This document shows positions 384-57,780 of a stretch of 64,000 bases of DNA, piece after piece. The DNA comes from a virus. How positions within the stretch are numbered: position 1 is the first letter of the stretch; each line of letters opens with the position of its first letter. The translations under genes were made by a program, and so were the position numbers. The DNA is taken from the IMG/VR virus record IMGVR_UViG_3300025141_014429, positions 59,029 to 123,028 of that record. One strand, given 5' to 3'. The notes under the pieces are model-generated. The model searched no databases. It was given only the letters and a program-made list of their open reading frames with translations, and was not told where the DNA came from.

Positions 384-1069
384 AAATATTTACATATATT
401 AAAAATAATTCATCTCGAATATCGAGAAAGAACTTTAAGATACTAGGGGGTATACCCTTGTGGAAGCATTTAATATACAATGTTAATTCATTTTCTGAAG
501 TTTTTATAGACACTGATAGTCAGGAAGTTATAGATGAGTGCAATAGAGACGAAATGCTGATGGGTGTTACTGCTTACTCTAGGTCTCAAAAGTTTATAGA
601 CATGGAGAACGATCTAAAAAATAAATTAAGCCCTGCGCTTCTAATGACTAAAAATTTTTTATCTAAATTTGTAGATGATGAAAATGAAGTAATTGTTTTA
701 ACACATGTAACTTCTCCATTTTTAAAAATTGAAACAATTTTAGATGCAATTACTTTCCTGGGTAAAGGATACGATGCAGTTCATTCAGTCACTTCAAAAC
801 AAGATTTTGCATGGTTGAATTCTTTTGATTACCCGATCAATTTCAACCCTAGCGTTGTACAAAGAACACAAGATTTAGAAAAGATTTATTTCTCAAATGG
901 TGCTTTTTTTATATTCACAAAAAAAACTTTTCTAGAAAACAATAATAGATTTGGTAAAAAAAATTACTTGTATGAAATCAATGATGTTGAAGGGATAGAA
1001 ATTGATACTTTGAATGACTTAGATTTTGCGAAAATAGTTTATAAAGGAGTTAAAAATGGAAATAATTGA
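380..1069 (+). CDS. Cytidylyltransferase family protein (CMP-nonulosonate/CMP-Kdo synthetase-like)
   Basis: A 229-residue protein with the overall pattern of acylneuraminate cytidylyltransferases (NeuA/KdsB group), which transfer CMP from CTP to an acidic keto-sugar. Supporting segments are ILGGIPLWKHLI after a basic N-terminus, VIVLTHVTSPFLK in the middle (family pattern: hydrophobic strand then L-x-PTSPLR-like), YDAVHSVTS, and the C-terminal EGIEIDTLNDLDFA (family: DIDTxxDxxxAE). The N-terminal nucleotide-binding motif is degenerate (RISRKNFKILGG instead of R.gSkgip.KN), so substrate or activity may be altered. It starts with GTG overlapping the preceding stop by 4 bases and runs 14 bases into the aldolase gene, which suggests translational coupling of the trio. 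The likely role is activation of a sugar acid for a glycan on the host or phage surface. Confidence 0.75.
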   Translation: MKIFTYIKNNSSRISRKNFKILGGIPLWKHLIYNVNSFSEVFIDTDSQEVIDECNRDEMLMGVTAYSRSQKFIDMENDLKNKLSPALLMTKNFLSKFVDDENEVIVLTHVTSPFLKIETILDAITFLGKGYDAVHSVTSKQDFAWLNSFDYPINFNPSVVQRTQDLEKIYFSNGAFFIFTKKTFLENNNRFGKKNYLYEINDVEGIEIDTLNDLDFAKIVYKGVKNGNN

Positions 1070-1991
1070 TGTTACACTTAGGGACGGTGGTCACGCTGTT
1101 AATTTTGATTGGCCTGTTCATGTTGCTAGAGAATATTATAAATTAATTTCTAATATTGACAGTGTAACTTATGTTGAAATGGGTTACTGGAAGCAGACTT
1201 CAAAGACTAGTAATAGATTCTACAATCTAGATATAGCGAAATTAGTAGAAGTCATTGGTGATAAACCAAAAAAGAAAGTTGCTGTAATGATAGACTATCA
1301 CTATTGCAAAAAAGACTTAAACGAATATCCAGACTGTAAACAAAATGTTGTTGGAATGATTAGAGTCTGTAGTAGAAAAAATGATATCGATAAAGCACTC
1401 CCATTTATCCAGAAATTAAAAAATAAGACAGGCTTGAAAGTAAGTCTTAATGTTTTCAACATTTCAAATTACAGTAAAAAAGAAATAGATGATGTTGCAG
1501 AAAAAGTAAAAAATTATAATTTAGATTATGTTTACTTTGCTGATACGCACGGCTCACTTGATTTTGAAGTAGATAGTCAAAGATTTAAAGATGCAGTTAG
1601 TGTCTTAAGAGAAAGTAATATAAAGGTTGGTATGCACTTACATGACCATAGAGGTAAAGCTTATAGTAACTTTAAGCACCTTAAAAGTATTGGTTTTACT
1701 GGTTTCGATGCATCTACGAGAGGCATGGGAAAAGGTGTTGGTAATTTAAGATTAGAAAATGTTATTGAAGACAAAGAATTAATTGATCTAATGAGCTTTG
1801 TTGCTAGAAATGAAAAAAAATTCACTATGAGAGCAAGTCCATACGGAGTAATTACAGCCAAATATGGAATTACTGATTATTACGCGTATTATGCAGAAAA
1901 AAATAAAATTACTATCGAATTATTTGATAGAATATGTAAAAACATAGAAGACATAGATAAAGATGTCTTCAATATAGAAAAGATAAAATAA
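1056..1991 (+). CDS. DRE-TIM (HMGL-like) aldolase/lyase family protein
   Basis: A 311-residue TIM-barrel protein of the HMG-CoA lyase/4-hydroxy-2-oxovalerate aldolase/isopropylmalate synthase superfamily (pyruvate carboxyltransferase domain). The signature TLRDGG is at residues 7-12. The metal-binding MHLHDHRGKAYSN is near residue 194, and the glycine loop DASTRGMGKGVGN follows near 218-230. These elements normally bind a divalent metal and handle an enolate of pyruvate or acyl-CoA. An AAGGAG ribosome site (1044-1049) supports the ATG at 1056. Aldolases of this type also occur in bacterial O-antigen clusters beside cytidylyltransferases, where the substrate is usually unknown. Here the same arrangement suggests that it makes or elongates the keto-sugar acid that the upstream enzyme activates; this is inference. 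Confidence 0.75.
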   Translation: MEIIDVTLRDGGHAVNFDWPVHVAREYYKLISNIDSVTYVEMGYWKQTSKTSNRFYNLDIAKLVEVIGDKPKKKVAVMIDYHYCKKDLNEYPDCKQNVVGMIRVCSRKNDIDKALPFIQKLKNKTGLKVSLNVFNISNYSKKEIDDVAEKVKNYNLDYVYFADTHGSLDFEVDSQRFKDAVSVLRESNIKVGMHLHDHRGKAYSNFKHLKSIGFTGFDASTRGMGKGVGNLRLENVIEDKELIDLMSFVARNEKKFTMRASPYGVITAKYGITDYYAYYAEKNKITIELFDRICKNIEDIDKDVFNIEKIK

Positions 1992-1992
1992 A

Positions 1993-2682
1993 ATGAAAGT
2001 AATAATAACAGGCACAAGTTCAGGTTTAGGAAAGGCTCTCGCAAATCAATTTGTAGAATTAGGTCATGAAACGATAGGTATCAGTAGATCTAATTCTAAA
2101 GAAACAAAATATGTTTGTGACTTAAGTGAAGATAGAAATATTAAAAACACTCTTAGTAAAATAACTACTGAGTATGCTAACAAGTCTATAGAGTATTTAT
2201 TTTTAAATGCAGGTGTTTTAGGAGATATTAAAAAAGCTTCAAAAGTAGAAAACAAGGAGCTCCAAGAAGCTTTGCAAGTTAATTTATTTGCAAACAAACT
2301 AATAATTGATACTTTTTTAAATTCTAAAGTTAAAGTTAAAAACATTATAATGATATCGTCAGGAGCTTCTATTAAAGCATACGATGGTTGGCTTTCTTAT
2401 TGTTTGTCAAAAGCAGCATTAAATCAACTTGCCAGATGCTACGCTATAGAAAATACAGATATAAATTTTCTAAGTTTAGCTCCAGGAATAATTCAAACAA
2501 AAATGCAAGATAAAATTATTGAATATTCTACAGAAAAATTTTCTTCAATTAAGAAATTTAAAGATTTGTACGGAAAAAATCCATCACCAGAAGAAATTGC
2601 AAATAAAGTAATTAGAAGCTTAGGAACGCTTAATAAACAAAAAAGTGGAAGCTTTTTTGACTTAAGGAGTATAGATGATTAG
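1993..2682 (+). CDS. Short-chain dehydrogenase/reductase
   Basis: A 229-residue classical SDR. The cofactor motif TGTSSGLG is at residues 6-13, the structural LNAG at 71-74, the catalytic Ser in MISSGAS (about 122-123) and the catalytic pair Y136-x3-K140 in YCLSK. These predict an NAD(P)(H)-dependent oxidoreductase acting on a hydroxyl or keto group. There is no transmembrane segment and the length is typical of the family. The gene begins one base after the aldolase stop and ends 8 bases inside the next gene, so it belongs to the same transcript. In this cluster it most likely oxidises or reduces an intermediate of the sugar acid made by its neighbours; no substrate can be assigned from sequence. 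Confidence 0.85.
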   Translation: MKVIITGTSSGLGKALANQFVELGHETIGISRSNSKETKYVCDLSEDRNIKNTLSKITTEYANKSIEYLFLNAGVLGDIKKASKVENKELQEALQVNLFANKLIIDTFLNSKVKVKNIIMISSGASIKAYDGWLSYCLSKAALNQLARCYAIENTDINFLSLAPGIIQTKMQDKIIEYSTEKFSSIKKFKDLYGKNPSPEEIANKVIRSLGTLNKQKSGSFFDLRSIDD

Positions 2683-3100
2683 TAAGATATACAATGAAAA
2701 TGACAACAGACCTTCACTACTTAAGGATGAATTTAAGCAAATAGGTGTTGATTTCGACGGTGTTATTCATGCATGTTCAAAAGGTTATCATGATGGAACA
2801 ATTTATGACGATCCTATACCCGGCTCATTGGAAGCTGTAAAAAGATTAGCCAGTAAATATAAAGTAATAGTATATACTGCCAAAGCTCGTCATGACAGGC
2901 CATTAGTTAACGGAAAAACTGGTGTTGAATTGGTTTGGGAGTGGCTCAAAGAAAAAGGGTTTAGTAAGTATATTTCCGAAGTGACAGCTGAGAAGCCAAG
3001 AGTAGTTTTTTATATTGACGACAGGGCGATTAGGTTTACAGATTGGAAACAAACAATAAGAGAATTAAATTCATTTGGGATAGATATAGATGGAACATAG
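2675..3100 (+). CDS. HAD-like hydrolase/phosphatase, small
   Basis: A 141-residue HAD-superfamily protein. Motif I is VDFDGVI with the two aspartates at 26 and 28. Motif II is the hydrophobic strand plus Thr in VIVYTAKAR, and motif IV is the acidic pair in VFYIDDRAI. The cap is minimal, as in phage and capsule-cluster HAD phosphatases that dephosphorylate sugar phosphates. A good AAGGAG lies at about 2662 before the ATG, which overlaps the SDR stop by 8 bases. In a pathway with an aldolase, an SDR and a CMP-transferase, a phosphatase step on a sugar-phosphate acid is a natural expectation (as in Kdo-8-P phosphatase). That role is inference; polynucleotide phosphatase activity is an alternative. 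Confidence 0.75.
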   Translation: MISKIYNENDNRPSLLKDEFKQIGVDFDGVIHACSKGYHDGTIYDDPIPGSLEAVKRLASKYKVIVYTAKARHDRPLVNGKTGVELVWEWLKEKGFSKYISEVTAEKPRVVFYIDDRAIRFTDWKQTIRELNSFGIDIDGT

Positions 3101-3128
3101 AGTCTTCCGATATGCATGTAAGTTTACT

Positions 3129-3136
3129 GATAAATA
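3129..3136 (+). promoter_or_regulatory. Possible late promoter box (GATAAATA)
   Basis: One mismatch from the T4 late -10 box TATAAATA, lying in the 55-base gap upstream of the GDP-fucose synthase gene at 3156, with an AGAAGGA ribosome site between. Weak by itself in AT-rich DNA. Confidence 0.25.
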
Positions 3137-3155
3137 GAACTAGAAGGAAAAATTT

Positions 3156-4076
3156 ATGAATATTCTGATAACAGGAGGTACCGGTTTAGTGGGCTCATCC
3201 TTTAAAAATATTATAACAGATAATAAACTTGCTTACATAGGGTCAGAATACGACTTAACAAAAAAAAGAGAGTCTGATCGTATGTTATACGATTTTTCTC
3301 CTGATGCTGTAATACATCTCGCTGCTAAAGTTGGAGGTGTAAAAGGTAATATGACAATGATGTATGATTTTTACACAGACAACATTAAAATCAATACAAA
3401 CGTTATTGATTCTTGTAAAGAGTTTGGAATAAAAAAAGTTGTGTCTCTTTTATCCACATGTGTTTATCCGGATAATGTTAAATATCCGTTAACTGAAGAT
3501 CAAATTCATAATGGTGAACCTCATGTTAGTAATTATGGATATGCATATGCAAAAAGAATGTTAGACGTACACAGCAGAGCAGTAAGAAGCCAACATAACT
3601 TAAATTATATAACAGCAATACCTAACAACATATACGGCCCCAATGATAATTTTGATTTAGAAAACGGACATGTAATACCTGCGATAATTAGAAAAATATA
3701 TGAAGCAAAAAAGACAAATAAGATTCCGGTGTTCTGGGGTTCCGGTATGCCGCTTAGAGAGTTTACATGTTCAAAAGATATAGCAAGGGCTATTCTACGC
3801 TTACTAGAGAATTATAATGGAATCAATCCAGTTAATATTGGTAAAACAGGAGATGTTAGCATCAAAGAGGTCGTCGAAATAATATCTGAGTGTTTAAGCT
3901 ATAGCGGTGAAATTCAATGGGATAAGACAAAACCAGAAGGTCAGTACAAGAAACCAAGCAGTAATAAAAAATTTTTGAACATGTTTGAAGATTTTGAGTA
4001 TACTTCTTTTAAACAAGGGATTAAAGAAACTTGTGAGTGGTTTGTAGAAAAATATCCAAAAGTAAGAGGAGTTTAA
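3156..4076 (+). CDS. GDP-L-fucose synthase-like epimerase/reductase
   Basis: A 306-residue extended SDR closely resembling GDP-L-fucose synthase (Fcl/WcaG). That enzyme epimerises and reduces GDP-4-keto-6-deoxymannose with NADPH to GDP-L-fucose. The Rossmann motif ITGGTGLVG is at the N-terminus. The family segments [10 protein letters not shown] (55-64), LLSTCVYP with S100 and C102, and Y129-x3-K133 are present, as is the [11 protein letters not shown] segment typical of Fcl. Length matches the family (about 310-320 aa). It is followed one base later by the GDP-mannose 4,6-dehydratase gene, the enzyme that makes its substrate, so the two form a complete GDP-mannose to GDP-fucose route. The ATG has an AGAAGGA ribosome site 9 bases upstream. 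Confidence 0.88.
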
Positions 4077-4077
4077 A

Positions 4078-5076
4078 TTGAAAACAGCACTAATCACAGG
4101 AGTAACTGGTCAAGATGGTTCGTATCTTGCTGAATTACTTTTGAGTAAAGGTTATCAAGTAATTGGAATTAAAAGAAGAAATTCTTTGATATCAACTGAT
4201 AGAATTGATCATATAATGAATGATGAAAAATTGGTTTTAAATTTTACACTTGTTTATGGTAATATGAATGATTCTGGTAATTTGCACAGAACTCTACTAA
4301 AGTACAAACCTGATGAAGTATACAATCTGGCAGCACAATCTCATGTTAGAGTTTCTTTTGATACTCCTGAAGAAACAACAGAGTTTGTGGCAATGGGAAC
4401 ATTAAGACTCTTGGAAGCAATGAGAAATGTCTGCCCAGAAGCAAGATACTACCAGGCATCTTCATCAGAAATGTTTGGAGACAATCCGGATCATCCTCAG
4501 AATGAAGACACTAGATTAATGCCGGCTAGCCCTTATGCTTGTGCAAAAACATATGCACATAATATATGTAGGAATTATAGGCAGTCTTATGGTATGCATA
4601 TTTCTTCTGGGATACTATTTAACCATGAAAGCCCACGAAGAGGTGAGACTTTTGTCACAAGAAAGATTACAATTGCTGCAGCAAAAATAAAATTAGGCTT
4701 ACAGAAGAAATTATATTTAGGAAATTTAGACGCAAAGAGGGATTGGGGGCATGCCAAAGATTATGTTGAAGCTATGTGGTTAATGTTGCAGCAAGATATA
4801 CCCGATGATTATGTCATAGCGACTGGTGAAACTTGTGCTGTATCTGACTTTTTAAGAATTGTGTTTGACATTGCTGGGTTAGATGAACGTAAATATGTGG
4901 AAATAGATGAAAGGCTTTATAGGCCTCATGAGGTACCACTTCTACTCGGAGACGCTACAAAAGCTAGAAAAAAATTAAATTGGAAACCTAAGTACGACGT
5001 ATATAAACTTGCAAAAGAAATGTATGAGGAAGATTTAAAGAAGTTACAAAATAAGATTAGTGGAATAGTTGAATGA
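4078..5076 (+). CDS. gmd: GDP-mannose 4,6-dehydratase
   Basis: A 332-residue extended SDR with the hallmarks of GMD, which converts GDP-D-mannose to GDP-4-keto-6-deoxy-D-mannose. The cofactor motif [10 protein letters not shown] is at residues 8-17. The catalytic segment SSSEMFG (128-134) and Y153-x3-K157 in SPYACAK are present. [15 protein letters not shown] is the highly conserved GMD segment downstream. Start is TTG at 4078; an AGAGGAG lies 7 bases upstream and no better ATG keeps the N-terminal Rossmann strand. It follows the GDP-fucose synthase gene and overlaps the next gene by 4 bases (ATGA). Full length for the family. Together with its neighbour it supplies GDP-deoxyhexoses for the glycosyltransferases encoded at 8.6-11 kb, or for remodelling host surface sugars. 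Confidence 0.92.
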
Positions 5077-5921
5077 AGAAAAATATTAACATAGGAATTA
5101 TTGGTCAAGGATTTGTAGGTTCTGCAATCAAAGCAGGGCTTAAAAACTTTTATAAAATTAGAACTTATGATATTGACAGGACTAAGTGTGATAGTACACA
5201 TAAGCAAGTTTGCTTAGAATCAGATATTATTTTTATGTGCTTACCTACCCCAATGCGTAAAGATGGGTCATGTGATACAAGAATATTAGAATTAGCAGTT
5301 CGTGAAGTCGATTTAGCAGTTTATCAACATGTTCATAGACCAACTATTGTCATAAAATCAACAGTTCCTCCAAGTACTACCGAAAGATTAAACGCTATGA
5401 CATCTTACTGCGATGTTTGTTTTAGCCCAGAGTTTTTAACAGAAGCAAATTCATTTGAAGATTTTAAAAATCAAAGTAGAATTATCATTGGAGGCACAGG
5501 CGCAAAAAAAGTAAAACAGATGTTTAGAAAACCTTTTCCTGATATTCCTATCGTAGTAACTAAATCAGAAACAGCAGAAATGGTTAAATATTTTACTAAT
5601 TGCTTTTTAGCTACAAAAGTAACGTTTGCAAATCAAATGTATGAAATTTGTGAAAACACAGGTATAGATTATGATAAAGTTTGTGAATATGCGCTATATG
5701 ACGATAGGATTGGAAAGAGTCATTTAGCAGTTCCTGGTCCCGATGGAGATCGTGGTTTTGGAGGTCATTGCTTTCCAAAAGATTTGGCTGCAATGATTAA
5801 CTTTTCTGATGGAAAAGAAGTTGATAATCATTTTTTGGCATCCGTTGAAATTTATAACAACGAGATTAGAACAAACAAAGATTGGTTAAGAATGAAAGGA
5901 AGAGCAGTAAGTGACGATTAG
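5073..5921 (+). CDS. Short nucleotide-sugar dehydrogenase (UDP-Glc/GDP-Man dehydrogenase family)
   Basis: A 282-residue protein matching the first two domains of UDP-glucose/GDP-mannose 6-dehydrogenases. The NAD-binding [13 protein letters not shown] is at the N-terminus, with [15 protein letters not shown] (55-69), [19 protein letters not shown] (118-125), the central K182 and GGHCFPKD with the catalytic C233. Usual family members are 390-450 aa. This one stops about 50 residues after the catalytic Cys and lacks the C-terminal nucleotide-sugar-binding Rossmann domain. Since both ends are clean (ATGA start, stop overlapping the next gene), this looks like a genuine short form rather than a frameshift. 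The catalytic residues are intact, so oxidation of a sugar C6 alcohol is plausible, but substrate binding must differ from the full-length enzymes. Confidence 0.8.
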
Positions 5922-6813
5922 CTTAGTAACAGGCGGTTGTGGATTCATAGGCAGTCATATTGTCGATAGACTTCACAGTATAGGACATCATGTAATTGTA
6001 ATTGATAATTTATCTTCACCTGAAAATGAAGACTTTTATTATCACAAGGACGTAGTAAATGTTAAGTACCATATTAAAGATATTAGTAAAGATAATTGCA
6101 GCGAGTATTTTAATGGTGTCGACTATGTTTTTCACCTTGCTGCCCGTAGTCGTATTCAACCTACTATTAATTCTCCTAACGAATGTTTTGAAGTAAATGT
6201 TGTAGGTACACAGAGGGTTCTAGAATGGTCACGGTTAAACGGAATTAAAAGAGTCATATATTCAGGTACTTCTTCACTTTACGGCAAACAGAATATAATA
6301 CCGTTCAATCCTAATATGCCGGCAGATTGTCTTAATCCATATTCTATGTCAAAATGGATGGGTGAAAGGATATGCGATCTTTATAGTCAAGTTTATGGAC
6401 TACCAAGTATTGTTCTAAGGTATTTTAATGTGTACGGCCCGAGAGAACCGCTTAAGGGCGAATATGCACCTGTAATTGGTTTACTTAAAAGGCAAGTCAA
6501 AAACAACAAACCTATGACAATTGTCTCTCCCGGAACACAAAAAAGAGACTTTACTTACATAGATGATGTTGTTAATGCAAACATTTGTGCTATGAATAAA
6601 TTGGTGCAAGAAGTACTTCATAAAGTATACAATGTTGGAACAGGAAAAAATTATTCAATACTAGAAATAGCATCCATGGTTGGAGATGAAAAAGTTTTGA
6701 TTCCAGCTAGGCCTGCTGAGGTTGTCGAGACACTAGCAGACATTAGTGAGACAACTAAAGATCTAGGTTGGACACCGAAACATAATCTTGAGGATATAAT
6801 TGATGACTACTAA
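5911..6813 (+). CDS. NAD-dependent epimerase/dehydratase (UDP-glucose 4-epimerase-like)
   Basis: A 300-residue extended SDR. The GTG start at 5911 overlaps the previous stop by 11 bases and puts the Rossmann motif LVTGGCGFIGSHI at residues 5-17. Other family segments are VFHLAARSR (73-81), GTSSLYG (119-125), the catalytic Y144-x3-K148 in NPYSMSK, LRYFNVYGPRE and KRDFTYIDDV. The pattern is that of UDP-hexose 4-epimerases and UDP-hexuronate epimerases. Given the upstream 6-dehydrogenase, a UDP-uronic acid epimerase is possible, but specificity cannot be read from the sequence. It is the last gene of the sugar-nucleotide run. Confidence 0.85.
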   Translation: MTISLVTGGCGFIGSHIVDRLHSIGHHVIVIDNLSSPENEDFYYHKDVVNVKYHIKDISKDNCSEYFNGVDYVFHLAARSRIQPTINSPNECFEVNVVGTQRVLEWSRLNGIKRVIYSGTSSLYGKQNIIPFNPNMPADCLNPYSMSKWMGERICDLYSQVYGLPSIVLRYFNVYGPREPLKGEYAPVIGLLKRQVKNNKPMTIVSPGTQKRDFTYIDDVVNANICAMNKLVQEVLHKVYNVGTGKNYSILEIASMVGDEKVLIPARPAEVVETLADISETTKDLGWTPKHNLEDIIDDY

Positions 6814-7228
6814 AAAGAAGCGAAATTGGAGTAAAAATAGAAGTATTTTAAAATCTATTTCTAATCCAACAAAAGATGCATATGAAATTAAAATGAAGAT
6901 ACCTGAATTGACTTTTGAAGGTGTTAAGAATCAACCTGACTTTGGCCATCTTTACATAACTTTTTATCCGTCTGATAAGGTGATAGAATTAAAATCACTA
7001 AAAGAGTACTTTTTTGCATTTAGAAGTCAAATTTATTCATATGAGAGAATAATTAATGTAATTTATGATGATATGACGGCTATTTACAATCCTACCAGGC
7101 TAAGACTAGTATTGATTTGCAACCCAAGAGGCGGAATATCTTCTAAGCTAACAGTCGACTCAGACTGGGGTGTCAGGGGCGGTAAAGATCAATTCAGGGA
7201 TTGGGTTGGACAAAAGGATGAATGGTAG
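6803..7228 (+). CDS. QueF-like T-fold protein lacking the catalytic Cys
   Basis: A 141-residue protein resembling QueF, the NADPH-dependent 7-cyano-7-deazaguanine (preQ0) reductase. Diagnostic segments are NQPDFGHLYITFYP (QueF: GQPDFxxxxIxYxP), VIELKSLKEYFFAFR (ExKSLKLYLxSFR) and CNPRGGIS (xxPRGGIS). The binding residues are kept (D46, E62, E81 by alignment). The nucleophilic Cys, seven residues before the QPDF Asp, is Glu39, and the His preceding the binding Glu is Tyr80. Canonical thioimide chemistry is therefore not possible. ATG at 6803 is preferred over TTG 6800 because GAGG lies 9 bases upstream; it overlaps the epimerase stop. It may bind a deazapurine or pterin-like base without reducing it. 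QueF membership is recognised by eye and function is unknown. Confidence 0.7.
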   Translation: MTTKKKRNWSKNRSILKSISNPTKDAYEIKMKIPELTFEGVKNQPDFGHLYITFYPSDKVIELKSLKEYFFAFRSQIYSYERIINVIYDDMTAIYNPTRLRLVLICNPRGGISSKLTVDSDWGVRGGKDQFRDWVGQKDEW

Positions 7229-43415: not shown

Positions 43416-44375
43416 ATGCAAACAATAACATCAAAAATTGAATTTATCACAGGACATTTTGGAGAATGTGATGTTAGTCGCGATGGTACTAACGTAGCTG
43501 TAAAATGTCCTAGTTGTGGTAAAGAAAACAAGAAAAAGCTATCTATTTGTCTCGAAACTTGGCGATATCATTGCTGGGTTTGTGGTATGAAAGGAAAAAA
43601 CCTTTATAAACCAATTAGAGACTTTAGAGGTGCAGATTATGCCAGAGAATATTCTAAGTTATATAATCTTAATAATGAAGATGATGAATCTGCACCTGAA
43701 ATTATTAGAGTTAAATTACCAAAAGACTATATGATGATAGCACCTAATCTCAAGTGCAAAGATCCTGATTTTAGATCTGTTTTAAAGTATTTGCGGAGCA
43801 GAGGTGTTACTGATGAAAAACTTTGGCAGCATAAGATAGGTACATGTATAACTGGAGGCTACTGGAATAGGCGCGTTATTTTTCCTTCTTTTGATGAAAA
43901 GCAAGAATTAAATTACTATGTAAGTAGAGCTATTGATGAAAAAACAAAGCCAAAATACGTAAATGCAAAAGTCAAAAAACGTGATGTTATCTTTGATGAA
44001 ATAAGAATAGACTGGGACAAAGAACTGATAATCGTTGAAGGTGTTTTTGATATGATTAAATGTAATCATAATGTTACCTGCCTTTTAGGAAGTGACATGT
44101 CAATAAAACATTCTATTTTCCAAAAAATTATCCAAAATCAAACACCTGTAGCATTAGCTTTAGATGAAGATGTAAAAGACAAGACTTATAAAATTGCTAA
44201 TTTATTATTTACGTATGGTATTGAAGTTAGAATTATCAATACAGAAGGTGTTGAGGATGTAGGTGAAATGAGTGTTGAAGAATTTAATCAAAGACTAGTT
44301 GAGGCAGATAATTATAATGGAGACTCTAAGATTAGCTATCTAATAGATAGTATAAAATCAGGATCTATTTTCTAG
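43416..44375 (+). CDS. DNA primase (zinc ribbon plus TOPRIM)
   Basis: A 319-residue DnaG-type primase. The zinc ribbon has C31-x2-C34 in CPSCGK and C53-x2-C56 in CWVCG. The TOPRIM catalytic core has E208 in IIVEGVFDM and D250-x-D252 in ALALDEDVKD. No helicase domain follows, so like T4 gp61 it must work with a separate helicase, which is outside this window. It synthesises RNA primers for lagging-strand replication. It has its own sigma70-like promoter, and is followed 8 bases later by a small zinc-motif protein and then the PAP2-Fic gene, so the three may form one transcript. Confidence 0.85.
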   Translation: MQTITSKIEFITGHFGECDVSRDGTNVAVKCPSCGKENKKKLSICLETWRYHCWVCGMKGKNLYKPIRDFRGADYAREYSKLYNLNNEDDESAPEIIRVKLPKDYMMIAPNLKCKDPDFRSVLKYLRSRGVTDEKLWQHKIGTCITGGYWNRRVIFPSFDEKQELNYYVSRAIDEKTKPKYVNAKVKKRDVIFDEIRIDWDKELIIVEGVFDMIKCNHNVTCLLGSDMSIKHSIFQKIIQNQTPVALALDEDVKDKTYKIANLLFTYGIEVRIINTEGVEDVGEMSVEEFNQRLVEADNYNGDSKISYLIDSIKSGSIF

Positions 44376-44383
44376 GAGGGACT

Positions 44384-44677
44384 GTGAAAAATTTGTCTGT
44401 ACAAAAATTAAGAAAAATAATATTAGAAGAAATGCAATCTATGCTAAATGATGACGTTCTATTTTCTCTTGACCAATTACCCACGTCAGGCACAGGTAGG
44501 GTTAGTTATGATAATGATGACATGTCATATCCGCATGATGAAGAAGAGGAATCAGGAGAAATTGGTTCTTGTATAAGTTGTGGCGGTCAATATGACCAAA
44601 AAACTCCTTGCGGTGAACATCCAGCAGACGATGATATTGACAGCGTAGTTAATCACATAATGGATCTCTTAAGCTAG
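44384..44677 (+). CDS. Small acidic protein with LRKIILEEM N-terminus and Cys/His motif
   Basis: A 97-residue protein starting at GTG 44384 after a strong AGGAGGG. Residues 5-18 form an amphipathic helix (SVQKLRKIILEEMQSML), a pattern repeated in two other small proteins near the head genes (57781 and 58346). The middle is very acidic (HDEEEESGE). Near residues 63-79 come C-x2-C-x9-C-x2-H (CISCGG ... PCGEH), which could bind zinc. It lies immediately upstream of the PAP2-Fic gene. I do not recognise a family; a head-packaged or regulatory protein is possible. Confidence 0.6.
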   Translation: MKNLSVQKLRKIILEEMQSMLNDDVLFSLDQLPTSGTGRVSYDNDDMSYPHDEEEESGEIGSCISCGGQYDQKTPCGEHPADDDIDSVVNHIMDLLS

Positions 44678-44693
44678 AAATTGGGTACGAAAT

Positions 44694-45953
44694 ATGATGT
44701 CTTTAAAGCATCTTTTTGAAAATGATGGCAAAGATTACGATGTTGAATGCACACAAAAGAACATCAAGAAAAGAAATAGGATTAATTTAAAAGCTGGCGA
44801 TGTACCCGTTGTATATCCACCAAAATTTGGATCGAAAAGATATACTACAGATGTTGAGACAGTCATACACTGTTATAATCATCCTATATTTACGCCGGCA
44901 TTTTTAGAGATTAGTGACAGCAACGCTGAAGAAATATATAAAAGATTTGTTGAAAATCAGAACTTGAATATTGATCTAGATCATATTGCTGATCTATGTA
45001 ATGAGTTTGACGGCATAGTTAGAGAACTTAAAAAGTATTATAGTCGAGCTAGACCAAGGGATGAAATTGTAAAAGTAGATGAAAATTTTCCAAGTGAAGA
45101 AATAAAAGAATCAGAAACTTATTCATACCCAAGCGGACACACTGCAATGGGATATTTTATTTCAAATATAATAGCAAAACAGTTTCCGCAGTATCAAGCA
45201 GATTTAGAAACAATAGCAGAAATGATCGGCCAATCTAGGATTGATATTGGGGTTCATTTTCCTTCTGATGTAGAATTTGGAAGATATATTGGAGAGTTAG
45301 CAGCAAGCAAAGTAGGAGAAAATGTAGGTAATCACAAATCACTGTCAGACAAATCAGTTTGTGATATATTTAAGAAAAAATCAAAAGAAAGTAAAGACTA
45401 TGCTAGCGATTTAGCAGAATTCATAAGAAGATCAAATGAGATAGAAAGATATCCGTTAGATTACAATGAATGCTTGAAGGCAAGCAATGAATTCATTGCA
45501 GGGTACCCAGTAGATTATTGCACTGACAACAAATATATCAGATCACATTTATCTGCGCTTAGAAAAGCAGCTTCTTTTGTCAAGATAAACACAATCAACA
45601 ATATCATCGATATTCATAAAAGCCTAGGTAATGATGTTATTGAGAATGATAATGGTGCCGGAGCATTAAGAAACTTTATTCATTCATCTAGGTCAGGTGT
45701 AAAATATCCTGATCCGGAAAATATTCCTAGTGAAGTTGATCAATTTTTGCAAACACGATACGATCACCCGCTTGGTAAACATGCCTACTACGAATGGATT
45801 CATCCGTTTTGTGATGGAAACGGTAGAAGCGGAAGAATTATTCTAGCACATGATCTAGACTTTGATTTTAAAGAGATCTTAAAACACATTGATGATGATT
45901 ATTTGCCTAATATTATCAGCATGACAGGAAATATTGCTGATAATAAGTTTTAA
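44694..45953 (+). CDS. PAP2 phosphatase-Fic domain fusion protein
   Basis: A 419-residue, soluble two-domain protein. Residues ~60-205 carry the complete PAP2/acid phosphatase signature: K113-x6-R120-P121, P146-S-G-H149, and S181-R182-x5-H188-x3-D192. Residues ~230-400 are a Fic domain with the full active site H370-PFCDGNGRSG-R381 (H370 base, N376, R378/R381). Upstream, SNEIER at 247-252 occupies the place of the class II inhibitory helix (S/T-x3-E-G/N), with the Glu kept. Fic enzymes usually transfer AMP or another phosphate-linked group to a protein hydroxyl; PAP2 enzymes hydrolyse phosphomonoesters or pyrophosphates. There is no signal or transmembrane segment, so both act in the cytoplasm. 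Two ATGs (44694, 44697) are possible. The N-terminal SLKHLFEN recalls virion-packaging tags. Confidence 0.85.
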   Translation: MMSLKHLFENDGKDYDVECTQKNIKKRNRINLKAGDVPVVYPPKFGSKRYTTDVETVIHCYNHPIFTPAFLEISDSNAEEIYKRFVENQNLNIDLDHIADLCNEFDGIVRELKKYYSRARPRDEIVKVDENFPSEEIKESETYSYPSGHTAMGYFISNIIAKQFPQYQADLETIAEMIGQSRIDIGVHFPSDVEFGRYIGELAASKVGENVGNHKSLSDKSVCDIFKKKSKESKDYASDLAEFIRRSNEIERYPLDYNECLKASNEFIAGYPVDYCTDNKYIRSHLSALRKAASFVKINTINNIIDIHKSLGNDVIENDNGAGALRNFIHSSRSGVKYPDPENIPSEVDQFLQTRYDHPLGKHAYYEWIHPFCDGNGRSGRIILAHDLDFDFKEILKHIDDDYLPNIISMTGNIADNKF

Positions 45954-46014: not shown

Positions 46015-46350
46015 ATGGCAAAATTTAGTAAAAAGCTAATAAGAAAAGCAGCAAAAGAAGCCAAGAGTAATGGTTTAATTGATAAGACCAAGAAGAAAGA
46101 AAACAGAAGCACAATGCGTGATGTAGCAAGAACAATGCGCAAAGAAAAGAGGGAAACTACATCTTTGACTTGGAATATTCATCCAGGTGATCTAGTAAGA
46201 GTTCATGATGGGTTATTAGGTTATATCATCAAAATAGACTCAGAAGGTGCTTTGAGGTTAAACGATTGGCATCAAGAAGCGACTGTTATGACTAGTCGTG
46301 GTAAAATTGGTGTACATCCTAAAACTTTACAAGTTGTGCAAAAAGCTTAA
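46015..46350 (+). CDS. Small basic protein with SH3/KOW-like C-terminus, unknown function
   Basis: A 111-residue protein. ATG 46015 is preferred over an in-frame ATG at 45979: the predicted transcription start from the promoter at 45956-45987 lies after 45979, and AAAGGAA precedes 46015. The first ~55 residues are strongly basic and helical (KKLIRKAAKEAKSN, then RDVARTMRKEKR). The second half, IHPGDLVRVHDGLLGYIIKI, with VHPKTLQVV at the end, has the strand pattern of an SH3-like/KOW barrel. A nucleic-acid or RNA-polymerase contact is plausible but unproven. It has its own promoter and is followed by another promoter. Confidence 0.65.
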   Translation: MAKFSKKLIRKAAKEAKSNGLIDKTKKKENRSTMRDVARTMRKEKRETTSLTWNIHPGDLVRVHDGLLGYIIKIDSEGALRLNDWHQEATVMTSRGKIGVHPKTLQVVQKA

Positions 46351-47552: not shown

Positions 47553-48851
47553 ATGTCAAAAAAAGAAATAACAACATCAGATTATATATTCGATGCAGTC
47601 TCTGACGAGGAGGCTGCTAGATATAATCTAGACCCTGTCTTAGTAAAGTTTTTAATGCACGAACCATTTTTTAGTACCATCTTAAGAAGTATGGGCAAGT
47701 ACAAAACCGATCAAATACCTACTGCAGGTGTTACAGTCAAAGATGGCGCTCTTACACTATATTGGAATCCCAAGTTTCTTGCAGGACTCAAACCAAGAGA
47801 AGTGTACGGTTTGCTCAAGCATGAATGTTATCATCTTATCTTTAATCACTGTACTACAAGAAAGCAAGATCCACATGCAATGTGGAATATAGCAACAGAT
47901 TTAGCAATCAACTCTCTTATTGATGAAGATGAGTTACCTGATGGTGGATTTATCCCGGGTAAGGCATTTGACTTAAGTAAGATTGAAGATCCGGATCAAA
48001 AAGCTAAATGGGCAGAATTTTCAAAACTAATAGAAAGTTTTCCTAAGGGTCAAGCATCTGAATGGTATATGGAGCAGCTACGCAAAGATGAAAATGCACA
48101 GCAGTGTTGTGAAGATATGAGCGGTGAAGGTGGTGGGGAAGGTATCCCTGGGGGATTTGACGATCATGGAAAATGGGGTGAAGGGCTTTCTGAAGAACAG
48201 CGACAGCTTCTAGACGGCAAAGTAAAACAAATCATAGGTGATGCAGTAAAAAAATCTGATGGTAAAAACTCATGGGGTACTGTTAGCGCTGAGACTCGTG
48301 AAATGCTTAGAAAAATGTTTAATAAAACAATCGACTGGAAAAAGGTATTACAGACTTTTGTAGGTCGAAGGCAGAGAGCAAACAAAACATCAACACATCG
48401 TAGACTAAATAGAAAGTATCCGTATATTCATCCTGGAAAGCACAGAAGTCATACCAGTAATTTGGTTATATACATCGACCAATCAGGTTCAATAGGTAGT
48501 GACGATATTGAAATGTTTTTTGGTGCGTTGTCAGAGCTAGCAAAAAATGTTACATTTACAGTTTATTTCTTTGATACTTCAGTTGATGAAAGAAGCAAGT
48601 TTATTTGGAAGAAAGGTAAGAAAAATGTTAAAGCAACCAGAACGCGTCACGGTGGTACATGTTTCAACTGTGTGGAGTTACATTATAGAGGCGTAAGCTC
48701 AGAATATGATGGCTATCTTGTTTTAACAGATGGCTGTGCATCCAAGCCTTACCCTTGTGTAAGTCAAAGATGCTGGGTTCTCCTTCCTAATTATGACTTG
48801 TATTTCCCGGCTGATAAAAAAGATACTATAGTCAGGATGGATCGCTCATAA
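47553..48851 (+). CDS. Metallopeptidase-like plus VWA domain protein (MoxR partner)
   Basis: A 432-residue protein. The N-terminal part has a zincin motif H90-E-x2-H94 in LLKHECYHLIFNH, followed by a helical region, as in the DUF2201-type putative metallopeptidases. A Gly/acidic linker lies at ~185-210. The C-terminal part is a von Willebrand A-like domain with the MIDAS start D309-x-S311-G-S313 (VIYIDQSGSIGSDD) and a later TDGCA segment. Proteins of this type are the standard partners of MoxR AAA+ ATPases, and the ATPase gene is immediately upstream, each with its own promoter. Whether the HExxH site is proteolytic is not established for the family. In a phage, a role in dismantling or inhibiting a host complex is possible. 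Confidence 0.82.
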   Translation: MSKKEITTSDYIFDAVSDEEAARYNLDPVLVKFLMHEPFFSTILRSMGKYKTDQIPTAGVTVKDGALTLYWNPKFLAGLKPREVYGLLKHECYHLIFNHCTTRKQDPHAMWNIATDLAINSLIDEDELPDGGFIPGKAFDLSKIEDPDQKAKWAEFSKLIESFPKGQASEWYMEQLRKDENAQQCCEDMSGEGGGEGIPGGFDDHGKWGEGLSEEQRQLLDGKVKQIIGDAVKKSDGKNSWGTVSAETREMLRKMFNKTIDWKKVLQTFVGRRQRANKTSTHRRLNRKYPYIHPGKHRSHTSNLVIYIDQSGSIGSDDIEMFFGALSELAKNVTFTVYFFDTSVDERSKFIWKKGKKNVKATRTRHGGTCFNCVELHYRGVSSEYDGYLVLTDGCASKPYPCVSQRCWVLLPNYDLYFPADKKDTIVRMDRS

Positions 48852-48910: not shown

Positions 48911-51900
48911 ATGAAGATAGCACATATTGCAGACATTCACTGGCGTGGATTGTCTAGACACAAAGAGTATAGAAAAGCTTTTACAGATTTTTTCGAGCAG
49001 TGCAAAGAATTAAAACCAGATATCATCTATGTTGGAGGTGATATCGTTCATAGTAAGACACAAGGTATATCACCAGAACTCATTGATAATTTGAGCTGGT
49101 GGTTTACTAGTTTAGCAGAGATAGCTCCTACACACATTATATTGGGTAATCACGATGGATTAATACTCAATAAAGGTAGACAGGATGCTATTACACCGAT
49201 TATCACAATGCTTGATAACAATAATCTTTATTTATATAAGCAGTCTGGTACATACCCGATAGGGATTCCAGGATTTAACTGGTGCGTATTTTCTTGCTTT
49301 GATGAGGAAAATTATAGCAAAGTTGTTCCTGTTAAAGGAGAGATTAATATCGCTCTTTATCACGGTGCTGTTAGAGGTTCTTTGACTGATACAGACTGGC
49401 AACTTGAAGGTGAGATTAATTTAGGTACCTTTGAAAATTATGAATTTGGAATGTTTGGTGATATTCATAAGCGCCAATTTCTGAATGAGAAAGGCACAAT
49501 TGCATACTGTGGATCTACAATACAACAGAATTACGGAGAAAGTGAAGGAAAAGGTTTTCTTATGTGGGACATTAGGTCTGCAGACGATTTTGATGTTGAA
49601 TTTTTTCCAGTTAAACATGATCATCCTTTTATAACATTGAGTTGGATGGGTTCTGTAGAAGAAACATTAAAAAAGTGTAAAATACACCCAGTGGGTGTTA
49701 GATTTAGAATTAGAACAGATGAAACAGTAACGCACATTGAGTGCAAAAGATTACAAGGTGAGCTAGTCAAGCATCATGGTGCTAAAGAAGTAGTTTTTAA
49801 GTCAGAATCAACATTTGACCCTAGAAAAGTCATGGTAGATAATGCAACACTTAACCAACAAAATCTCAGAGATCCTATCACACATAGAAAAATGTTTCGT
49901 GAGTATTACAAAGATGCCCAGATATCTAAAGATCATTGGGAAAAAGTAGACGGAATGATTGATCTATACGTCGATAAACTCTCAGGTCAAGACGAAACAC
50001 TTAGAAATATAAAATGGGAAATTAATCGTATTGAATTCGATAATTTGTTTTCGTATGGTGAGAAAAACATTATTAATTTTGACAATCTTTCGGGTATAAC
50101 TGGAATATTTGGCACCAATGCTAGAGGTAAATCTTCTATAATTGGTGCAATTGTTTATACATTATTCAATTCGACAGATCGAGGTTCAATCAAAAACTTG
50201 CATGTCATAAACACTCGCAAAAATATGTGCAAGGCCTCGATTTGGCTTACTATTAATGGACAGAGATATAGAATTGATCGCAAGACAATTAAGAAAAATG
50301 CTAAAGGAGGGGTTTGGGCTCCTACAAGCTTAAACTTTTATCGTGTTGATAGAGATAACAATGAGGTTGAAGACTTGACAGAAGAGCAAAGAAGGGAAAC
50401 AGAGAAAATAGTCAGAGGATTGATTGGTAATTCAGATGATTTTTTATTAACCAGCTTAGCATCACAAGGTCAAATGAATGCATTTATTAAAGAAAAGGCG
50501 ACTGCCAGAAAACAAATACTAACTAATTTTTTAGACTTAGAAGTTTTTGATAAGCTTCATGAAGAAGTTAGAAAAGATGCTCAAGAAGTTAGATTTAAGT
50601 TTAAATCACTAGGCGAAAATAATTGGATAGAAAGAATAAGCAATACAGAGTCTGATGTAGAATCAAACAACAAAAAGCTTAAGTCAGAAGATAAGACTAT
50701 TACTAGACTTAAAGAAGAAATTGATGCGCTTAAAGATGAATTAAGGTCAGATGCAACTACTGTTCTAGCATCAGATGTAAGAAAAGTTTATAATAAGCTA
50801 ATTAAAACAGAGACAAAAATATCTGAAGATGATGATGAAATAGCTGATATTAAAAATGAAATTAGTGAAAAACAAAGCAAACTAAACAAACTCAATAGTT
50901 TTTTAGATAATTTTGATATTGCTGAGATGAAAGAAAGAAGATCTGCACAAATTAACTTAGAAAGCTCTGCTAAGGAAATGAAGCATAAGATTGACTTAAT
51001 TAAAAAAGATATCAAACAAAGTAAGCAATCTATAAGGATACTGGAGGATGTACCCTGCGGTGATCAATTTCCAACATGTAAATTTATCAAAAATTCCCAT
51101 AAAAGCAAAAAAGTAATAGTCCAACAAGAGGCTAATCTTATTTCTTTGAATACAAATTTAACAGATATAAGAGGAATGTATAGAAAAATTAAAGATGATG
51201 AGCTGGAAGAAAAAATTAGCAAATATGAGCAAATTGTACAAAAGAAAAGCATTCTTATTTCAGAAACTTCTAGAGCTAATTTGCAGCTAGCTAAACTACA
51301 AGAAAACATGAAATGGCACAATAAGGCTCTCAAAGATCAACAGGCAGAATATGAAAGATTAGATGCAGCTTTCAAGAGTCAAGACAGCACTAGTGCGAAT
51401 GGCGAACTTATTAAGCTTTGTGATGAAAAGATCAAATATTTAAAAAAGCTTGAATTTGATAAAATTAAAACAATCAATCGTTTAGCTGAACTTAAAGCTG
51501 CACTCAGGAGACTGCAAAAAGACCGTGACCTATACGATGAATTAAAAGATCAAAATAAGTGTTATGATATATTTAGTACTGCAGTATCAAAAAAAGGTAT
51601 CCCTTTACATATTATAAACAAAATGCTACCTGCAATAAATACAGAAATTTCTAAAATACTATCAGGTGTTGTGGGGTTTACAGTTGAAATAGAATCTGAT
51701 TTAGAATCCAATTCTCTTGATGTTTATATTAACTACGGTGACTCTCGTCGTATAATTGAGCTAGGATCCGGGATGGAAAAGATGATGGCATCACTAGCAA
51801 TCAGAGTTGCATTAATTAATGTATCAACATTGTCAAAGACTACCACACTTATGATTGATGAAGGTTTTGGCACTCTAGATGATACCAATCTTGAAGCTTG

Positions 51901-52039
51901 TAATAGACTTTTAGTATCGTTAAAGAAGTGGTTTAAAAATATACTAGTCATATCACACGTTGATGCAATCAAAGATTGTGTGGATCATAATTTAGAAATA
52001 CTTAAAAGAGGTAAAGATTCATATGTCTCGTGCGAGTAA
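48911..52039 (+). CDS. Mre11-Rad50 type (gp47-gp46) single-chain recombination nuclease/ATPase
   Basis: A 1042-residue fusion of two proteins that T4 makes separately. Residues 1-~340 are an Mre11/SbcD/gp47 calcineurin-like nuclease: ADIHWRG, VGGDIVHSK, ILGNHDG, LYHGAVRGS and FGDIHKRQ carry the metal-binding residues. From ~373 a Rad50/SbcC/gp46 ATPase begins: NRIEFDNLFSYGEKN, Walker A GTNARGKSS near 400, long coiled coils, a Cys pair in CGDQFPTC near 715 at the hook position, and the C-terminal signature LGSGMEKMM and Walker B LMIDEGFG near 980. gp46/47 resect DNA ends for recombination-dependent replication and degrade host DNA. No internal stop or frameshift is seen. Fusion should force 1:1 assembly. 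Confidence 0.88.
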   Translation: MKIAHIADIHWRGLSRHKEYRKAFTDFFEQCKELKPDIIYVGGDIVHSKTQGISPELIDNLSWWFTSLAEIAPTHIILGNHDGLILNKGRQDAITPIITMLDNNNLYLYKQSGTYPIGIPGFNWCVFSCFDEENYSKVVPVKGEINIALYHGAVRGSLTDTDWQLEGEINLGTFENYEFGMFGDIHKRQFLNEKGTIAYCGSTIQQNYGESEGKGFLMWDIRSADDFDVEFFPVKHDHPFITLSWMGSVEETLKKCKIHPVGVRFRIRTDETVTHIECKRLQGELVKHHGAKEVVFKSESTFDPRKVMVDNATLNQQNLRDPITHRKMFREYYKDAQISKDHWEKVDGMIDLYVDKLSGQDETLRNIKWEINRIEFDNLFSYGEKNIINFDNLSGITGIFGTNARGKSSIIGAIVYTLFNSTDRGSIKNLHVINTRKNMCKASIWLTINGQRYRIDRKTIKKNAKGGVWAPTSLNFYRVDRDNNEVEDLTEEQRRETEKIVRGLIGNSDDFLLTSLASQGQMNAFIKEKATARKQILTNFLDLEVFDKLHEEVRKDAQEVRFKFKSLGENNWIERISNTESDVESNNKKLKSEDKTITRLKEEIDALKDELRSDATTVLASDVRKVYNKLIKTETKISEDDDEIADIKNEISEKQSKLNKLNSFLDNFDIAEMKERRSAQINLESSAKEMKHKIDLIKKDIKQSKQSIRILEDVPCGDQFPTCKFIKNSHKSKKVIVQQEANLISLNTNLTDIRGMYRKIKDDELEEKISKYEQIVQKKSILISETSRANLQLAKLQENMKWHNKALKDQQAEYERLDAAFKSQDSTSANGELIKLCDEKIKYLKKLEFDKIKTINRLAELKAALRRLQKDRDLYDELKDQNKCYDIFSTAVSKKGIPLHIINKMLPAINTEISKILSGVVGFTVEIESDLESNSLDVYINYGDSRRIIELGSGMEKMMASLAIRVALINVSTLSKTTTLMIDEGFGTLDDTNLEACNRLLVSLKKWFKNILVISHVDAIKDCVDHNLEILKRGKDSYVSCE

Positions 52040-56346: not shown

Positions 56347-57178
56347 AAAAAGAAACATAGGCATAATGTACGAACTATTGCTAATGAACATTAGCTCTAA
56401 TTTGGTAGAGGGTAAGAAAGCTAAAGCTAATAAATCGCTTAGAATTATAGAGAAAAGATTTAATAACAATACTGAGCTTTATAAAGAATTTCGACTCTTT
56501 AATGCTTTAATCAAGACGCATGCTAGTAGTGAAAGAATTGCACTCCAAATCATAAATGAAGCGAAAGATGCAATTAGAAGATGTAATAAAACAGAAATAG
56601 ATAGAGAAAAGTCTAGATTAATAAGAGACATTAATCATATTATCGATGATTCGAAATTCTATCATAGAAAGGTAAGAAATTACCGCCAATACGGTACTGT
56701 CCAACAGCTTTTCAATGAGTGGTCAAAAGGTGATAAATCAAATCTTAAACAAGTACTTGACTTAGAAGATAAAGTTATTAGAATGCTTACTGAAGAAAAA
56801 ACAGAAATTACAAAGTCTGAAATAGATCCAAATTTAACTGATAAGCTAGTTATAAATTTAATGACTGAAAAACTTAATCAACGCTACAATACAAATTTAA
56901 ATGAAGAACAAAAACAGATAATTCAAAAATATTCTTTGTACTGTACAGAAAATCATCACGGAGATATGAGAAAATACCTTGTCTCACTAAAAGAAAATAC
57001 AGTAAATGCAATGAAAAAATATAAAATAGAAACTGATAGTGAATTTACTAGAAGCAAAATAGATAACGTAATTAGCAAAGTCCAAGAGCTAAATACAGAT
57101 ACAATAAATGATGATATCGTTACAAAATTTATGACAGTATCAAATCTTAAAGAACAAATTCTTAAGGAGGATAAGTAA
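56333..57178 (+). CDS. Conserved head-cluster protein between portal and protease (281 aa)
   Basis: A 281-residue, highly charged helical protein. It begins MKHNKKRNIGIMYELLLMNI and consists mostly of Lys/Glu/Asn-rich helices without membrane segments or catalytic motifs. T4 has the small prohead core proteins gp67 and gp68 at this location, but these are far shorter, so this is not an obvious homologue. It overlaps the portal end and its stop overlaps the protease start by one base. GGAGG (56316-56320) precedes the ATG. Expected role: prohead core or head assembly factor, from position only. Confidence 0.65.
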   Translation: MKHNKKRNIGIMYELLLMNISSNLVEGKKAKANKSLRIIEKRFNNNTELYKEFRLFNALIKTHASSERIALQIINEAKDAIRRCNKTEIDREKSRLIRDINHIIDDSKFYHRKVRNYRQYGTVQQLFNEWSKGDKSNLKQVLDLEDKVIRMLTEEKTEITKSEIDPNLTDKLVINLMTEKLNQRYNTNLNEEQKQIIQKYSLYCTENHHGDMRKYLVSLKENTVNAMKKYKIETDSEFTRSKIDNVISKVQELNTDTINDDIVTKFMTVSNLKEQILKEDK

Positions 57179-57780
57179 TGTCTAATTTAAAATTACTTAC
57201 TGAGTGGTGCCCATTAAATCTTGACAAAGAATCTATTAATGAATCTAAAATTCAAAATGGAGGAAGATTAATCTTAAAAGGAATCATACAGCGCGCAGAA
57301 ACTTTAAATCAGAATGGAAGAGTTTATCCTAAGTCTATACTTGAACGGGAAGTAATAAATTATCAAAAACTCATTAAAGAAAATAGAGCATTAGGCGAAT
57401 GTGACCATCCAGACTCTTCAGTTGTTGAGTTGAAAAATGTATCTCACATTGTTAGAGAAGCTTACATGGATGGCGACTCAGTTTACGGAGCAATAGAAAT
57501 ACTAGACACACCAAAAGGAAAGATAATCCAAAGTTTAATAGAGAGTGGCGTAACATTAGGAATATCTTCAAGAGGTGTAGGCTCAACAAGAAGTCAAGGT
57601 GATACACAGGTTGTACAAGATGATTTTCAGCTAATATGTTTTGACATGGTTTCAGAACCTTCAACGCCAGGTGCATTCATGCTAAGAGAAGGAAAAGAAA
57701 TAGACAGGCGTGATCTAGATAAAATTTTTACAAAATCAGATAAGATTGATAGAATATGCAATGAAATATTGAGGTGGTAA
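57178..57780 (+). CDS. 21: Prohead core protease, gp21-like
   Basis: A 200-residue serine protease of the T4 gp21 / herpesvirus-assemblin-like (S80/S78) type that matures the prohead by cutting scaffold and capsid proteins. The core is GGRLILKGIIQRAETLNQNG (30-49), with NGRVYP following, H77 in GECDHPDSSVV and the nucleophile Ser in GVTLGISSRGVGS (S130 or S131). VSEPSTPGAF is the usual C-terminal family segment. Length matches T4 gp21 (212 aa). AAGGAGG precedes the ATG. It is followed directly by the next gene, whose GTG is the base after the stop. Confidence 0.9.
   Translation: MSNLKLLTEWCPLNLDKESINESKIQNGGRLILKGIIQRAETLNQNGRVYPKSILEREVINYQKLIKENRALGECDHPDSSVVELKNVSHIVREAYMDGDSVYGAIEILDTPKGKIIQSLIESGVTLGISSRGVGSTRSQGDTQVVQDDFQLICFDMVSEPSTPGAFMLREGKEIDRRDLDKIFTKSDKIDRICNEILRW

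Follow-up and report, generated by a model that had tools for sequence, protein, structure and literature searches.

A PAP2-Fic fusion protein with a T4 Alt-like N-terminus, conserved in a lineage of T4-superfamily phages: a candidate head-delivered effector

Alt of bacteriophage T4, an ADP-ribosyltransferase packaged in the phage head, is the textbook example of an enzyme that a phage injects along with its DNA in order to modify host proteins, and the annotation of the T4 record likewise places Alt in the capsid and has it enter the host together with the DNA. The Fic fold is found in Doc of phage P1, and PAP2 enzymes of the PhoN type act on phosphomonoesters as well as on pyrophosphate bonds. 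Here we describe a phage gene that unites a PAP2 and a Fic domain on one chain of 419 amino acids, PAP2-Fic, encoded in a stretch of 64,000 nucleotides (the window) that covers positions 59,029 to 123,028 of the 123-kb IMG/VR virus record IMGVR_UViG_3300025141_014429. In its presumed working, this protein would be most like T4 Alt and the polyvalent multi-enzyme proteins of phages.

The polyvalent proteins of phages and conjugative elements likewise carry several enzyme domains per chain and have been proposed to reach the host along with the DNA (PMC5512222); two enzyme domains are seen in PAP2-Fic, for which delivery is our proposal. The main text of the polyvalent-protein survey names neither Fic, Doc nor PAP2 (PMC5512222), and our literature searches for Fic combined with PAP2 found no description of this architecture, in agreement with the initial annotation of the stretch, which was made from the sequence alone and knew of no precedent. 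Class II Fic proteins (FICD/HYPE, SoFic, CbFic2, CdFic) use an inhibitory glutamate for inhibition and also for deAMPylation, the removal of adenosine monophosphate (AMP), by the Fic domain itself (PMC10628234). PAP2-Fic shares with them the HPFxDGNGRxxR loop, an N-terminal helix with the presumably inhibitory Glu and the fold, but it lacks G or N after this Glu (N once in 16 members), is fused to PAP2, ends soon past the Fic core and is only 15–24% identical to them. The Fic fold is also common to PAP2-Fic and the class I toxins, phage P1 Doc and FicT, from which it differs by its canonical AMPylation loop and its own inhibitory helix. Class A acid phosphatases (PhoN, PhoC, 7f17) and the apyrase PhoN2 have the same catalytic motifs and fold as the PAP2 half; they are secreted, periplasmic enzymes, whereas PAP2-Fic has no signal peptide and is fused to Fic.

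The gene and its catalytic elements are located as follows:
44694..45953, + strand: PAP2-Fic fusion gene, 419 amino acids, ATG start (open frame, Pfam PAP2 and Fic, homologous fusions on at least 18 other contigs)
45024..45305, + strand: Pfam-matched part of the PAP2 domain, residues 111-204, with active-site K113, R120, H149, R182, H188 and D192
45399..45449, + strand: Fic inhibitory helix region, residues 236-252, with S247-N-E-I-E251; E251 is invariant and aligned with CdFic HSNKIEG
45594..45848, + strand: Pfam-matched part of the Fic domain, residues 301-385, with the catalytic loop HPFCDGNGRSGR (370-381) and a conserved R326 before it

The presence of both enzymes on one chain, the central claim of the initial annotation, is confirmed: the Pfam matches exceed their curated cut-offs (PAP2, E 7.2e-13, 48.9 bits vs 27.2; Fic, E 7.9e-10, 39.9 bits vs 24), a confident model shows both folds, and the motif residues all stand where that annotation had put them. 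The first half carries the class A-type PAP2 signature K-x6-RP, PSGH, SR-x5-H-x3-D, in the form of K113-x6-R120-P121, PSGH with H149, and S181-R182-x5-H188-x3-D192. The loop of the second half, running from H370 to R381, conforms to the HPFx[D/E]GN[G/K]Rxx[R] of the Fic/Fido family (PF02661), and its SNEIER segment (S247, E251, R252) sets a Glu-containing helix, with R following the Glu, at the class II position. AlphaFold2 modeling with a 16-sequence alignment gave a mean predicted local distance difference test score (pLDDT) of 84.9 for the whole chain and of 91.2 for the Fic part alone. Foldseek searches with the whole model returned class A acid phosphatases (best 7f17, E 5e-6; target template modeling (TM) score about 0.6-0.68 over ~190 columns) and FICD (E 2e-4), and the Fic part matched FICD (E 3e-5), CbFic2 and CdFic (TM 0.63/0.55). 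In PDB sequence searches the first half matched class A acid phosphatases and the second half Fic proteins; identity to PhoN2 is 36% over 119 amino acids. Vanadium haloperoxidases share the PAP2 motifs, but their fold match is weaker (Foldseek E about 2e-2 vs 5e-6 for acid phosphatase), and this assignment was rejected.

Neither a signal peptide nor a transmembrane or hydrophobic N-terminal stretch was found in the protein, and the earlier reading of a soluble chain holds up. The lack of a secretion signal would place the PAP2 domain in the cytoplasm or the virion rather than in the periplasm, and sets it, despite its class A fold, strictly outside the secreted class A enzymes. A PAP2 of the membrane lipid phosphatase type was rejected, as there is no transmembrane stretch and the closest folds are those of soluble class A enzymes. 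The protein does not fit a toxin-antitoxin system of the FicTA type (class I) either, since the inhibitory motif lies in the same chain and not on a separate antitoxin gene. The predicted activity of the Fic domain is the transfer of AMP (or another nucleoside monophosphate), probably to a host protein, because its loop has the canonical AMPylating form; autoinhibition by E251 is likewise predicted, because in the alignment this residue falls on the inhibitory motif of CdFic, and because the Glu has this function in class II Fic proteins.

A survey of other genomes, which the initial annotation had proposed, revealed the fusion on at least 18 further IMG/VR contigs, at 33-80% identity to the window protein. 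The family was recovered by a DNA pattern of the Fic loop, followed by alignment-based and broader pattern scans of IMG/VR; long or poor peptide patterns recovered only one 80% copy. Both Pfam domains are present in all 16 members that were aligned, and invariant among these are K113, R120, P121, S147-G148-H149, R182, H188 and D192 of PAP2 together with H370-F372, D374-R381 and E251 of Fic; residue 181 is S or T (T in three), and in the catalytic loop only position 373 varies. Between the window protein and that of contig L001, nonsynonymous (dN) and synonymous (dS) divergence are 0.13 and 0.93 in PAP2, 0.07 and 1.52 in Fic, and 0.35 and 0.61 in the linker. In both domains pairwise dN is much lower than dS, with a more relaxed linker, although the values for distant pairs are limited by dS saturation, and both domains are by this measure under purifying selection. 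In a tree of Fic domains the PAP2-Fic members lie together on one side of a branch (support 100/99), consistent with a single fusion event. The join between two genes that the initial annotation had envisaged as its refutation, for which only the rarity of the architecture would speak, did not materialize: at least 18 other contigs have the same continuous frame, order and, where flanks are available, neighbors, which, with the single-branch Fic tree, makes a chimeric reading frame from assembly or sequencing vanishingly improbable. None of 50,697 records in a phage collection had both domains in one place, the best matches spanning one domain, and BFVD gave no match covering both among the matches listed. 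A single scan of cellular genome contigs, which is not a proper survey of cellular fusion homologues, returned only the PAP2 of a Treponema metagenome-assembled genome.

The class II inhibitory motif, (S/T)xxxE(G/N), is partly kept in the family, at 247 (S/T) and at E251, and residue 252 is R, Q, N, F, L, S or K, never G, and N once. Several phage proteins without PAP2 have a closely similar Fic domain; five of these were also aligned, and E251 is invariant in all 21 sequences. L032, L034 and L035 retain the textbook SNKIEG, the G of which is absent from the PAP2-Fic members. L034, L051 and L065 are short Fic proteins. The L032 protein (4036-7116) has many LRV/HEAT-type repeats, its gene lying between those for the gp21 protease and for the scaffold and major capsid proteins, and in L035 (5998-6987) a Fic domain of the same clade is fused to a Nudix hydrolase (Nudix E 1.7e-16). 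In addition, at the minus-strand start of L093 (IMGVR_UViG_3300006736_003987) there is an open frame of at least 912 amino acids with Fic, an HExxH-like LSHELQHSCD and further modules; it holds internal tag-like stretches (LRENIKRILLTEN) and is possibly a polyprotein of injected modules.

The N-terminus of PAP2-Fic, which the initial annotation had left unnoticed, bears on its delivery:
44694..44723, + strand: N-terminal tag MMSLKHLFEN, residues 1-10, proposed capsid-targeting sequence with the LxE-type site LFE↓N (conservation, T4 Alt likeness)

Mean pairwise identity between members is 54% over residues 1-10, 24% over residues 11-37 and 53.5% in the PAP2 core, and pLDDT is below 50 for residues 1-16 and 19-26. 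Judged from alignment and model, this combination of a conserved start, a variable stretch behind it and low model confidence is the pattern of a detachable tag. Most members start M-x-S-[IL]4-x-x-L7-F8-x-E10-[TS], and T4 Alt, with MELITELFDE, has the same form and spacing. In the T4 internal protein IPIII, residues 4 and 7 direct targeting and packaging, while 8 and 10 direct processing (PMC9026906). When 55 kb of T4 with 275 candidate starts was scanned by a strict rule made after IPIII (hydrophobic residues at 4 and 7; hydrophobic-x-E as processing residues 8 and 10), the rule matched gp24, Alt, IPII and IPIII alone, and it missed IPI and the core proteins. Applied to 1,587 distinct ATG starts of the collected loci, it matches 9 of 14 family members against 9 of the 1,573 others. 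On this motif evidence we propose that the N-terminus is a putative capsid-targeting sequence, to which the window protein is an approximate match. Start tags also occur elsewhere in these phages: between 440 and 11256 of L035 (IMGVR_UViG_3300008952_000030), about a dozen small unrelated open reading frames each begin with one of two short amphipathic tags, KLxxxxLxxxIIxEE or MxxFxxxWxxFLxE, the former of which also begins the window genes at 44384 and 57781 and several L010 genes. This run looks like a general head-targeting tag system of these phages.

The phage origin assumed in the initial annotation is borne out by the record, in which portal, prohead protease, major capsid protein and terminase are all of T4 type (gp20, the gp21 protease and gp23 are present); the terminase shares about 41-44% identity with those of Microcystis phage Mel-JY01 and the Flavobacterium immuto phages. 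The protease expected to cut the tag and the conserved neighbors of PAP2-Fic are:
57178..57780, + strand: gp21-type prohead protease (Peptidase_S77; Pfam E 2.3e-28; PHROG head maturation protease)
43416..44375, + strand: DnaG-type primase, conserved left neighbor (Pfam DNAG_N; synteny)
44384..44677, + strand: small upstream gene, 97 amino acids, GTG start, CxxC pairs, N-terminus KLRKIILEEM, conserved neighbor (synteny)
46015..46350, + strand: 111-amino-acid protein, right neighbor (synteny)

The order is RuvC-like resolvase, DnaG-like primase, 97-amino-acid protein, PAP2-Fic, 111-amino-acid protein, AAA ATPase, VWA/metallopeptidase-like protein, SbcCD-like fusion, two small genes, terminase and portal, and it is retained in relatives with small insertions or losses (e.g., the AAA/VWA pair is missing in L010 and L027). 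The 97-amino-acid protein, without a Pfam or PHROG match, is a possible partner or co-packaged protein of PAP2-Fic; a role as antitoxin is not favored, given that the inhibitory motif is already within the PAP2-Fic chain. Rfam had no match in the PAP2-Fic region. Several neighboring features are worth recording in their own right. At 48911-52039 of the window, as in its relatives (L010, L018, L027, L062), the gp47/gp46 (SbcD/SbcC-type) pair is fused into a clade-conserved protein of 1042 amino acids, consisting of a metallophosphoesterase and an SMC-like ATPase. The VWA/DUF2201 metallopeptidase-like protein at 47553-48851, whose PHROG label of HNH endonuclease is probably a mislabel, adjoins the AAA ATPase in a conserved pair reminiscent of MoxR-VWA couples. 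At the left end (1-7000), inspection by eye finds sugar-nucleotide and aldolase-type genes (epimerase/dehydratase-like, SDR, cytidylyltransferase-like), which suggests surface glycan synthesis or modification.

We favor, with a confidence that stands midway between doubt and conviction, the view that PAP2-Fic is a head-delivered effector with AMP-transferase activity in this T4-superfamily phage lineage. The chain is a soluble two-enzyme protein with intact PAP2 and Fic active sites, as far as can be read from its sequence. Its first ~10 residues would draw it into the prohead core and be cut off by the gp21-type protease, after which the protein would take the route of T4 Alt and exit the head together with the DNA. 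The Fic domain, of class II type and restrained by Glu251 until released, would then move AMP from ATP onto a host protein. The most speculative step concerns PAP2, which might hydrolyze a small phosphate compound. This could be the nucleotide or pyrophosphate of the Fic reaction, or else PAP2 could be a second weapon with a target of its own; any particular role for it is doubtful. The position of the close Fic relative of L032 inside the head cluster counts in favor of delivery, and the host takeover effector that was among the first suggestions for this gene gains independent support from the N-terminus resembling T4 Alt and capsid-targeting sequences (PMC9026906). Several points weigh on the other side. 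The window protein and that of L001 carry Glu at position 9, not 10, and thus fail the strict rule, although LFE↓N is compatible with an LxE site; a looser LF..E pattern was derived from the family itself, so that its full recall is circular and its specificity alone is informative. PAP2-Fic sits between the primase and the AAA/SbcCD genes, outside the head cluster, and the T4-type late promoter core TATAAATA occurs in the window at chance frequency and is uninformative. The residue after Glu251 is not G or N, and regulation may differ from that of textbook class II enzymes.

The two domains could also be independent weapons on one chain, sharing the delivery tag and nothing else, with unrelated targets, as in polyvalent proteins; this possibility, which we rate below our favored view but above the other alternatives, is compatible with the delivery steps just outlined and differs from them over the role of PAP2. 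The delivery of multi-domain proteins along with phage DNA is a recognized theme (PMC5512222), Fic relatives of the clade adjoin other modules (HEAT/LRV repeats in L032, Nudix in L035, the long multi-module chain in L093), and the linker between the domains is variable. Yet the PAP2-Fic pairing is constant over at least 18 contigs at about 33-80% identity, with one apparent origin, which suggests some coupling, although shared delivery alone could suffice to preserve it. PAP2 may plausibly hydrolyze nucleotides or pyrophosphate that belong to the Fic reaction, since its relatives include broad acid phosphatases and PhoN2, described as an ATP-diphosphohydrolase (PMC3937361); it is no more likely to do so than to be a second, independent weapon. 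A coupled head-delivered enzyme, in which Fic would attach a nucleotide to a host protein and the fused PAP2 (Nudix in a relative) would destroy the by-product and donor or trim the attached group, is in our estimate rather improbable, and, if true, would be a self-contained, perhaps self-limiting modification machine of undescribed type. For the by-product pathway raised in the initial annotation, the Fic-Nudix fusion of L035 is a weak hint, and the idea is otherwise neither supported nor excluded; its make-and-remove switch found no specific support, as class II deAMPylation is done by the Fic domain via the inhibitory Glu, which is kept here (PMC10628234). Nor do the phosphomonoester and pyrophosphate substrates of PhoN-type PAP2 enzymes speak for such a switch. 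Taken as a whole, that first interpretation is partly supported.

A different function, made in the infected cell rather than delivered to it, would be counter-defence, in which Fic acts mainly as a deAMPylase, or PAP2 strips a modification or a nucleotide signal, reversing for example an AMPylator of the SoFic type. Class II deAMPylation requires the Glu that is invariant here in 21 sequences (PMC10628234), PADLOC counts SoFic among anti-phage proteins and its SoFic model is the best PADLOC match (E 2.5e-13), and both Fic partners, PAP2 in the window and Nudix in L035, are phosphohydrolases. The same Glu, however, equally suits a simply autoinhibited AMPylator, and the conserved, separable N-terminal tag is left unexplained; we consider counter-defence unlikely. 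Still less probable is an ordinary late metabolic enzyme that is not packaged, a phosphatase with a degenerate or regulatory Fic domain serving phosphate salvage or the adjustment of nucleotide pools. The location beside primase, AAA and SbcCD-type genes would suit it, as would the broad specificity of the nearest solved relatives, class A acid phosphatases; but the active site of Fic is intact and maintained by purifying selection, the phosphatase has no secretion signal, and here too the tag finds no explanation.

Among described systems, T4 Alt is the natural reference for the favored, head-delivered effector: the family shares with Alt, IPII and IPIII the form and spacing of the N-terminal tag and the T4-type head with a gp21 protease, and would be, like Alt, a protein-modifying enzyme. 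The catalytic fold differs (ADP-ribosyltransferase in Alt, Fic and PAP2 here), no homology was seen beyond the tag, and packaging and injection of PAP2-Fic are proposed from its sequence. The domain families and the idea of delivery are known, whereas their combination, its syntenic conservation in a phage lineage and the Alt-like tag appear to be new. If correct, a Fic AMP-transferase with a head tag of the Alt kind would add a second chemistry to the strategy of injected enzymes, and the tag would provide this clade of phage Fic proteins with a delivery route. The unvarying partnership with a phosphatase raises the testable question of whether Fic chemistry needs, or benefits from, a built-in phosphohydrolase, and the tag predicts other injected, uncharacterized proteins of these uncultured phages.
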